Source: Lactobacillus sp.
GTDB taxonomy: Bacteria; Bacillota; Bacilli; Lactobacillales; Lactobacillaceae
DNA length: 64,000 nucleotides
Assembly (NCBI GenBank): GCA_022651245.1
Contig: JALCQM010000008.1
Location: 1 to 64,000, forward strand
Reading direction: 5' to 3'
This document shows, piece after piece, positions 3,385-31,990 of the stretch. Made by a program: the position numbers and the translations under genes. Below the pieces are notes generated by a model. The model did not search any database, was not told where the DNA came from, and saw only the letters and a program-made list of their open reading frames with translations. Each line of letters starts with the position of its first letter. Position 1 is the stretch's first letter.

Positions 3385-3441
3385 GCTAGCCTAAGTTCAA
3401 CTAAACAAATCAAATACTGTGAGAAAAGCGCAAGCCGGCGG

Positions 3442-3635
3442 ACTAGTCAGGGAACAGCACTCAGCGACTGAGAGGTGCTGATAGGATTAAGGCTCGTATT
3501 CACTTTTTGAGTAGACGATCGTAAGGTCGCTCCGGTACTGCCGTTAAGTTGTTGAGTTGTTTTGCCTATGTCATAGGCATTGAACAAGGGTGGTACCGCG
3601 ATGCTTCGTCCCTTTTTAGGGATGGGGCTTTTTTT
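3442..3635 (+). promoter_or_regulatory. T-box riboswitch (tRNA-Phe) controlling pheST
   Basis: The conserved T-box sequence AAGGGTGGTACCGCG is at 3586-3600, immediately followed by a terminator hairpin (GCTTCGTCCC pairing with GGGATGGGGC, 3603-3628) and seven Ts to 3635. Stem I begins near 3442. The candidate specifier is TTC at 3499-3501, a Phe codon followed by A, which agrees with the downstream phenylalanyl-tRNA synthetase genes. Uncharged tRNA-Phe is expected to pair with specifier and T-box and prevent termination. Confidence 0.93.
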
Positions 3636-21777: not shown

Positions 21778-21806
21778 TTGACACTTAATCATGAGAATGG
21801 TTTAAT
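21778..21806 (+). promoter_or_regulatory. Promoter of the aromatic amino acid operon
   Basis: TTGACA at 21778-21783, exactly 17 bases, then TTTAAT at 21801-21806. This strong sigma-A promoter is 15 bases after the ynbB stop and would start an RNA near 21813, giving a leader of about 235 bases before the chorismate mutase gene. Confidence 0.88.
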
Positions 21807-21836
21807 GATAACAACATTCAACGGGAGGACAACATT

Positions 21837-21890
21837 ATGCGCTTAAGTTTCTGGCAATTTGAATATCGTTACTATGCACAAGCACACTAA
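21837..21890 (+). CDS. Aromatic-codon-rich leader peptide (17 residues)
   Basis: The reading frame encodes MRLSFWQFEYRYYAQAH and stops at TAA 21888-21890. GGGAGG lies 8-9 bases before the ATG, and the frame begins about 25 bases into the predicted transcript. Six of its 17 residues are Phe, Trp or Tyr, with F-W, then F, then Y and Y-Y, the end products of the pathway encoded just downstream. An intrinsic terminator follows 99 bases later. This is the classical arrangement of a ribosome-mediated attenuator. The peptide itself probably has no function after synthesis. Identification rests on composition, position, ribosome site and promoter; no homologue search was possible. Confidence 0.85.
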   Translation: MRLSFWQFEYRYYAQAH

Positions 21891-22021
21891 TTCGCTCGTT
21901 AGGATACGGGCGTTCATCGTCCGTGTCGACTGCGCATAGTCTATTCAGATGCCAGCTAGACACGCTGTCTAGCGCATATTGTGTCATCGCCAACTAGGCA
22001 GAAACCTAGTTGGCTTTTTTT
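21871..22021 (+). promoter_or_regulatory. Attenuator region of the aromatic operon with terminator
   Basis: The terminator is GCCAACTAGG-CAGAAA-CCTAGTTGGC followed by seven Ts (21989-22021). Upstream structures: ACTATGC inside the Tyr-Tyr-Ala codons (21871-21877) can pair with GCATAGT (21934-21940). Between these lies a 7-bp hairpin at 21906-21924 (ACGGGCG with CGTCCGT). GCTAGACA-CGC-TGTCTAGC forms an 8-bp hairpin at 21955-21973, extended by ATGC/GCAT. A ribosome stalled on the Tyr codons would block the first pairing. A clean antiterminator partner of the terminator arm was not identified; GTTAGG at 21898-21903 is a weak candidate. Confidence 0.72.
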
Positions 22022-22047
22022 GTACTCATGAAGAGAGGAAGATTCAC

Positions 22048-22380
22048 ATGGAAAAAATGACGCGTCGATGGCGACAAAAATTAGCAGGTACGCCACAAGA
22101 GCAGGCACTGACCATCGTGCGTGAGGAGGTGACGGCGATTGATCATCAGCTGGTCACGTTGCTCGAGCAGCGATTTTCTGCCGTGGCCACGATCGGGGCA
22201 TTGAAAGTGGATCGGTCACAGCCGGTCCGTGATCTTGATCGCGAAACCGCAGTATTGCGCGATGTGGCGGCTCAGTTAGAGAAGCCGGCATTGGCGCCAT
22301 ACTGCCAAGCAATTTTTGAAACGATTATGCAAGAATCGCGGCGCTTGCAAGAAAATAGTCGTGAAGAGGGAGTGAATTAA
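22048..22380 (+). CDS. aroQ: Chorismate mutase, AroQ class
   Basis: A 110-residue all-helical chorismate mutase converting chorismate to prephenate. The N-terminal helix has VREEVTAIDHQLVTLLEQRFSAVATIGALKV, with the R-(x)n-D-x(2)-L pattern and the catalytic Arg and Lys typical of AroQ, and the third helix has ETIMQESRRLQ with the conserved Glu/Gln-Ser-R. It stands alone, not fused to a dehydratase or DAHP synthase. ATG 22048 follows GAGAGGAAG, after the attenuator terminator. It is the first enzyme gene of the operon, one base before aroC. Confidence 0.9.
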   Translation: MEKMTRRWRQKLAGTPQEQALTIVREEVTAIDHQLVTLLEQRFSAVATIGALKVDRSQPVRDLDRETAVLRDVAAQLEKPALAPYCQAIFETIMQESRRLQENSREEGVN

Positions 22381-30802: not shown

Positions 30803-30876
30803 GTACCAGTAGCTCAGTTGGATAGAGCAATGGTCTTCTAAACCATCGGTCGCGAGTTCGAATCTCGCCTGGTACA
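30803..30876 (+). tRNA. trnR: tRNA-Arg (anticodon TCT)
   Basis: A full cloverleaf of 74 bases: acceptor GTACCAG/CTGGTAC, D arm GCTC-AGTTGGATA-GAGC, anticodon stem ATGGT/ACCAT around CTTCTAA (anticodon TCT), T arm GCGAG-TTCGAAT-CTCGC. CCA is not encoded. A terminator follows 30 bases later. It reads AGA codons. Confidence 0.98.
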
Positions 30877-31892: not shown

Positions 31893-31990
31893 TGTATTTG
31901 TCACCCCTCATCTGCAACCGCGCAATGTTAGGTTTTCAAGCATAGCACCTAACTTGGCGAGTCTTCAGGGGAATTAGCCTACGGGCAACA
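31893..31990 (+). ncRNA. L21 leader (ribosomal protein autoregulatory RNA)
   Basis: The 5' leader of rplU-prp-rpmA shows the expected closing pairing of CACCCCT with AGGGGAA and an internal hairpin GTTAGGT...ACCTAAC (31928-31954). Position and architecture match the L21 leader of Firmicutes, thought to bind L21 and repress its own operon. The assignment rests on position and pairing; a covariance-model score was not available. Confidence 0.75.

Follow-up and report, generated by a model that had tools for sequence, protein, structure and literature searches.

The locus raises the question of whether a short reading frame rich in aromatic codons, which lies between a promoter and a terminator in front of the aroQ-aroC-aroA-tyrA-aroK genes, acts as the sensor of a transcription attenuator. 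An earlier note, made from the sequence of the window (the whole stretch of 64,000 nucleotides that was analysed), had described a near-perfect promoter, a 17-codon frame with six aromatic residues preceded by GGGAGG, and a 10-bp terminator with seven Ts, and had proposed that the operon responds jointly to the supply of Phe, Trp and Tyr by stalling of the ribosome on their codons. Promoter, GGGAGG and frame were found where they had been placed, and for the terminator and the genes the hairpin search and Pfam agree with the description. Judged from sequence, the element very probably (we put it at about 0.87) attenuates transcription by means of the ribosome, as his/trp leaders do, and appears to belong to a new RNA family. 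The leader, with its strands designated S0 to S8, and the controlled operon are composed as follows:

21778-21806, plus strand: promoter, TTGACA (21778-21783), 17-nt spacer, TTTAAT (21801-21806); read from the sequence
21823-21828, plus strand: Shine-Dalgarno GGGAGG; read from the sequence, also present in the sister species
21837-21890, plus strand: leader peptide MRLSFWQFEYRYYAQAH and stop, ATG at 21837, TAA at 21888-21890; sequence, sister species, family
21871-21880, plus strand: S0, codon strand, pairs with S4; repeats, covariation
21893-21898, plus strand: S1, just 3' of the stop codon; sequence, S1:S2 covariation
21903-21912, plus strand: S2, partner of S1 or alternatively of S3; covariation
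21918-21927, plus strand: S3, partner of S2 or (21922-21927) of S5; covariation
21931-21940, plus strand: S4, predicted partner of the codon strand S0 when the ribosome is absent; inverted repeat, covariation
21955-21964, plus strand: S5, left arm of the hairpin 21955-21973, 21959-21964 alternatively pairing with S3; repeat, covariation
21966-21973, plus strand: S6, right arm of the hairpin 21955-21973, with S7 as alternative partner in relatives
21989-22021, plus strand: intrinsic terminator, S7 (21989-21998), S8 (22005-22014) and seven T (22015-22021); hairpin search
22048-22380, plus strand: aroQ, type II chorismate mutase, which heads the controlled operon; Pfam PF01817
22382-23548, plus strand: aroC, chorismate synthase; Pfam PF01264
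23558-24847, plus strand: aroA, EPSP synthase; Pfam PF00275
24816-25682, plus strand: tyrA, prephenate dehydrogenase, coordinates of the longest frame (the true start may differ); Pfam PF02153, PF20463
25682-26179, plus strand: aroK, shikimate kinase; Pfam PF01202

The promoter at 21778-21806 agrees with the consensus in 11 of 12 bases and is absent from the promoter-scan list because the scan requires an A at position 2 of the -10 element; TTGAC[AG]...TTTAAT precedes the leader in 11/11 aligned loci, the window locus counted among them. The leader peptide comprises 17 codons with six aromatic residues (F, W, F, Y, Y, Y), and a large share of its coding region pairs with strands located further 3', additional pairings of the coding strand beginning at 21857 and 21832. 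The leader RNA (21810-22025) is predicted to fold at -81.7 kcal/mol compared to -51.8 +/- 4.1 kcal/mol for shuffled sequences (z -7.3), none of 200 shuffles being as low. In the window copy, S1:S2 consists of six pairs only, formed by S1 with 21907-21912 as found by reading, and the terminator hairpin (21989-22014) has 10 pairs and a loop of 6.

Lack of the frame in relatives that keep the terminator had been named beforehand as a refuting outcome; the frame is in fact conserved, both in the sister species Lacticaseibacillus baoqingensis, where the frame is kept as MRMSFWQFEYYYYAQAH, and in a family of related leaders. A DNA search with the leader in 30 genomes of the genus yielded one convincing relative, the sister species, the remaining matches being short; in genus g13, all nine aroC loci (among 30 examined) have MTxxxxxxxx[YF]YF[DG]YAYF[RKM] upstream. 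A covariance model built from 11 leaders and designated R1 matched 101 of 397 Lactobacillaceae genomes, spread over 19 of 40 genera (116 matches, of which 110 were fetched, the remaining six having E-values of 5.5e-4 to 0.009). The element is not peculiar to the aroQ operon and represents one member of a wide family.

Each of the 110 fetched R1 matches contains a leader frame of 17-22 codons preceded by a match resembling a ribosome-binding site, with the stop codon 25-40 nt into the match and, in 107 cases, an ATG start. Which frame was taken depended on its start codon, its ribosome site and where its stop fell; composition played no part. Aromatic residues account for 59% of the last ten leader positions and for 4% of the rest, R1 including part of the coding region and therefore favouring aromatic codons among its matches. 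At least four aromatic residues within the last nine are present in 108/110 leaders and in none of 157 control frames, i.e. other ATG frames from the fetched loci that are 16-23 codons long and preceded by a Shine-Dalgarno sequence; the window peptide is one of the two leaders below this number, because three of its six aromatic residues sit further upstream. Counted back from the stop codon, the common tail is Y-Y-[YF]-[GD]-[FY]-[AY]-[YW]-F-[RKS]. At the Gly/Asp/Asn position the codon, for the most part purine-purine-C (columns 16-18), pairs with S4, which may be the reason for the interruption of the aromatic run by Gly, Asp, Asn or Ser. The first half of the peptide drifts; conservation is seen in the residue class (aromatic, or I/L/V) and in the codons paired in the RNA. 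In total, the leaders contain 426 Tyr, 218 Phe and 33 Trp codons, so that Trp contributes little to the signal. Ribosome-mediated attenuation, as proposed in the earlier note, is supported by the covarying exclusive stems and the matching genes described below, with Trp in a subordinate role.

Within the genus, 5 of 30 genomes possess aroC and the same five are among the R1 matches; within the Lactobacillaceae, 99 of the 204 genomes with aroC are R1-positive, as are 2 of the 193 that lack this gene. On the other side of the balance, 105 of the 204 aroC-bearing Lactobacillaceae genomes gave no match with R1 and 66 none with a second covariance model, R2. The latter matched 196/397 Lactobacillaceae genomes (26 of 40 genera), 70 of 355 genomes in the order, including 46 that do not belong to the Lactobacillaceae, and 4 of 299 in the class, a single one of which, holding three copies, lies outside the order; this distribution marks a family largely of the Lactobacillales, and the low count in the class argues against many false matches. 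In the three copies of the genome outside the order (L273, L274, L269), the downstream genes are a transketolase, a class I/II aminotransferase and an MFS-like gene (by reading). A set of 71 R2 loci was examined, consisting of 45 of the 49 matches outside the Lactobacillaceae and 26 selected within. Based on the last nine residues, 61 of them carry at least four aromatic residues, seven at least four I/L/V, and three neither. Five of the 71 (L205, L206, L209, L244, L246) lack a ribosome-site match by the pattern used, and two (L205, L244) lack a recognised downstream gene; L244, an 8-residue frame with an E-value of 0.005 counted among the seven I/L/V-rich ones, is probably a false match.

The type of codon in the leader corresponds to the gene that follows. 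The reference set for downstream genes was picked after the loci had been seen, so the names are to be read as groupings with checked representatives, and on this basis a recognised gene is the first one downstream in 110/110 R1 loci: MFS transporters (66), aroQ (24), aroE (9), aroC (4), aroA (1), the NhaC type (3) and a type of 176-178 amino acids (3). In 38 of the 110 (L094 and 37 others), MFS and chorismate mutase are fused in one frame. Aromatic tails in the R2 loci precede TrpX-like ABC systems (41), MFS (7), aroE (5), family-3 binding-protein systems (3), the NhaC type (2), the 178-amino-acid type (2), aroK (1), an amino acid permease (1) and aroQ (L248), the tails of L248 and of L265 (178-amino-acid type) having three aromatic residues in the last nine. 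Six leaders with at least four I/L/V on the same scaffold (L207, L210, L213, L224, L227, L235), all from families of the Lactobacillales other than Lactobacillaceae, precede ilvA-like (2) or LivK-like (4) genes and nothing else, and no aromatic leader examined precedes either of these. Pfam backs the gene classes for the representatives scanned except for the 176-178-amino-acid type, and in NCBIfam the LivK-, TrpX-, NhaC- and MFS-like representatives score below the curated cut-offs.

These data bear on a rival explanation, nascent-peptide arrest. Inside the exit tunnel, a peptide such as YYYGFAYFR could bind a free aromatic metabolite and so halt translation, as in TnaC, in which case the peptide itself rather than the rate of decoding would be the sensor. 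The conservation of the tail, with its Gly/Asp/Asn position and its often basic last residue, does exceed what codon counting needs. Against this, Tyr, Phe and Trp interchange at several aromatic positions, the same scaffold carries tails such as IIISIIIR or LLLLSLIIR before branched-chain genes, and the pairing of the purine-purine-C codon with S4 offers a reason at the RNA level for the position that interrupts the tail. We consider arrest of this kind improbable.

Attenuation by decoding is further supported by the RNA itself, which in the family forms a relay of mutually exclusive helices (S1:S2 or S2:S3, S3:S5 or S5:S6, S6:S7 or S7:S8) together with S0:S4, S1 starting at or directly after the stop codon of the leader and a terminator-like hairpin with a T run being present in 110/110 fetched R1 loci. 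Covariation was determined in an alignment of 100 matches (A3; 97 distinct sequences, L146, L148, L149, L150, L152, L154, L155, L156, L158 and L160 being absent), with counts referring to sequences and not to independent events. S1:S2 is paired in 96.6% with double changes in 8/8 pairs, S2:S3 in 93.6% (6/10 pairs), S3:S5 in 97.1% (4/7 pairs) and S0:S4 in 94.7% (7/9 pairs), S2:S3 and S3:S5 being absent from the structure of either model, including the one behind the alignment. The covariation score of these four helices was reached by 0/500 shuffles; by other measures S2:S3 and S3:S5 stand out less clearly, and for the latter the number of doubly changed pairs was matched in 41/500 and the pair types in 37/500 shuffles. 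S5:S6 shows little covariation (score reached by 7/500 shuffles, percentage paired by 187/500; cognate strands by genus p 0.23), partly because its right arm is misaligned. In a comparison of 16 genera, cognate strands pair better than strands of other genera for S1:S2, S2:S3, S3:S5, S6:S7, S7:S8 and S0:S4 (p<0.02). At the family level, covariation therefore supports mutually exclusive helices, with S5:S6 as the weakly supported one.

Single bases fit two alternative partners in most sequences, as for columns 45-79-101 (150/161 rows), 46-78-102 (152/161), 44-80-100 (151/159), 49-74-107-173 (136/152) and 73-108-170 (132/152). The same pairings recur in a wider set of 62 loci, from which three references had been removed and in which one column is mapped ambiguously (left out of this alignment, A4, were L198, L205, L215, L244, L248, L256, L257, L259, L260, L261, L262 and L266): paired cells amount to 474/487 for S1:S2 and 453/495 for S2:S3 (eight pairs counted each), 354/389 for S3:S5 (seven) and 218/226 for S0:S4 (five), largely through other base pairs. 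Relays of the CG type, common in Lactobacillaceae, are replaced by the UA type elsewhere, the base and both its alternative partners changing together, and this joint change, counted in sequences and not in independent events, is the strongest indication that both states matter.

The relay was also folded up to the terminator loop with the footprint of a ribosome blocked, the footprint being assumed to reach 15 nt upstream and 13 nt downstream when counted from the first P-site base. A ribosome at the stop codon then covers 8 nt beyond it, approximately the length of S1. In these equilibrium calculations, S1:S2 is lost with the footprint at the stop codon, and S2:S3 is higher than on stalling in 93/100 copies; with the footprint on the aromatic codons, S3:S5 is higher in 81/100, S6:S7 higher in 79/100 and S5:S6 lower in 67/100 than with the footprint at the stop. 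The shift is modest (median of 1.06 expected S6:S7 pairs when stalled and 0.24 at the stop). When S1:S2 was imposed, S3:S5 rose by more than 0.1 in 71/100 copies and fell in two, and S6:S7 rose by more than 0.1 in 57, fell in none and showed no clear change in 43. In the window copy, in a further two from g1 and in g6 and g29, S6:S7 is about zero in both states; in g3, g10 and g15 it is high, to about the same degree, in either state, so that the relay does not discriminate in the calculation for any of these. In the window copy, which is divergent, S3:S5 is predicted on stalling with S1:S2 imposed; S6:S7 (21966-21972 with 21994-22000) is possible by reading only and is not predicted by folding, so the last step is taken from relatives. 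A pairing of 9 bp between 21951-21959 and 22006-22014, seen by reading, may substitute for S6:S7 in this copy.

From the parts, their conservation, the family-wide covariation of the alternative helices and the match between codon type and downstream gene, we infer the stalling, the order of events and the physiological response, the S6:S7 step of the window again following its relatives. RNA polymerase would start at the promoter 21778-21806 and a ribosome would follow on the leader frame. With charged Tyr, Phe (and Trp) tRNAs in ample supply, translation would proceed to the stop codon and the ribosome there would cover S1, S2:S3, S5:S6 and S7:S8 would form, and transcription would end at about 22021. 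When these tRNAs are scarce, the ribosome would stall on the aromatic codons (S0) and S1:S2 would form, whereupon S3 would take S5, S6 would take S7, the terminator would be blocked and aroQ-aroC-aroA-tyrA-aroK would be read. If the leader is not translated, S0:S4 would form and termination would be favoured, because S3:S5 would cross S0:S4 as a pseudoknot. The leader and its chain of competing hairpins thus probably turn on the aromatic genes when a shortage of these amino acids stalls the ribosome.

That the operon is governed by a T-box, by a riboswitch or by an RNA-binding protein, with the short frame being incidental, is still less probable than peptide arrest; a T-box or protein-binding motif in the leader had been the other refuting outcome named in the earlier note. 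T-boxes are reported to precede many amino-acid genes of Firmicutes, chorismate mutase genes included (excerpts of PMC2494555), and the pheST leader of the same window is one, as the earlier note had recognised: RF00230 matches at 3410-3616 (core GGTGGTACCGCG; 56.8 bits, E 8e-12 in a 501-base search), though below the gathering score of 93 bits, so that a default Rfam scan misses it. The aro leader itself matched no Rfam family, T-box included, at the gathering score, and neither did 17 aroC loci including the window, amino-acid leader families being among those searched; a protein without an Rfam signature would escape such searches. A permissive scan of the window leader gave five weak matches, the best being Qrr with 25.7 of the 50 bits needed. 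The conservation of frame, ribosome site and aromatic tail is unlike that of an incidental frame. A small protein with a function of its own, followed by an ordinary attenuator responding to something else, would account for frame conservation across many genera and is highly unlikely, since the frame sits within the RNA switch and its conservation is confined to residue class and paired codons.

The his, trp and phe leader attenuators of enteric bacteria have a leader peptide whose frame abounds in codons for the amino acid under control, together with alternative antiterminator and terminator structures. The present element resembles them in these respects and in the coupling of translation to transcription; unlike them, it matches no Rfam leader family and has the first of its switching strands immediately 3' of the stop codon. 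The his type is described in the available part of PMC9413887. For Gram-positives, the parts of the literature available report His leader peptides in bacilli (PMC2965389) and in the B. cereus group, Eubacteriales and Erysipelotrichales (PMC9413887), and a Leu-rich ilv attenuator in Staphylococcus aureus, and mention predictions of branched-chain leader peptides for Lactococcus lactis and Streptococcus (PMC5794164). Compared by description only, these represent the same kind of control but do not concern aromatic genes; the branched-chain predictions in Lactobacillales may overlap with the Ile/Leu members of the present family. The uORFC-13-1 motif before aroF in Acholeplasma (24 representatives, with known hosts in one genus according to the part available of PMC8632094) shares, again by description only, a short frame with at least one Phe codon, an aromatic gene and a terminator. 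In Firmicute studies, as far as their accessible parts go, T-boxes prevail and leader peptides are the exception, and trpX of S. suis is reported to be T-box regulated (PMC9382623). The T-box leaders of pheST and trpX serve the same gene classes as the aromatic leader-peptide family. T-boxes sense uncharged tRNA directly, without translation. Panina et al. are said to have described, in 2003, 'ARO boxes' in streptococci, which may overlap with the present family.

As a mechanism this is familiar; what appears not to have been described, as far as the literature searched goes, is the RNA family, the relay that follows its stop codon and the redeployment of the family with changed codons. No description of the leader family was found in the open-licence literature, in agreement with the earlier note, which had known of none. 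We favour, with some reserve, the view that one ancestral, retargetable scaffold spread through the Lactobacillales, in which the relay was kept and the codons (Tyr/Phe, Phe, Trp-containing, Ile, Leu) were swapped to match the downstream gene, as a translation-based counterpart of the T-box. If this is true, leader codons would predict the substrates of uncharacterised transporters, e.g. that many TrpX-like ABC systems answer to Phe and Tyr. In lactic acid bacteria, aromatic synthesis and several transporters appear to be under the control of a large family of leader-peptide attenuators whose switching relay is well documented; this family is a candidate for a new Rfam entry and would serve as a model for attenuation outside enteric bacteria.

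Several observations concern single genes. YY..YAY-like tails stand before NhaC-type antiporters in L153, L156, L252 and L267 (PF03553 in L153 and L252), which suggests that these carry tyrosine or another aromatic compound. Among proteins of the 176-178-amino-acid type, L102 and L254 gave no Pfam match and L254 no NCBIfam match either; the start of this type (L102, L254, L265) resembles prephenate dehydratase by eye. The window further contains a ribosomal protein L21 leader (RF00559) at 31906-31974 and a tRNA at 30803-30876.
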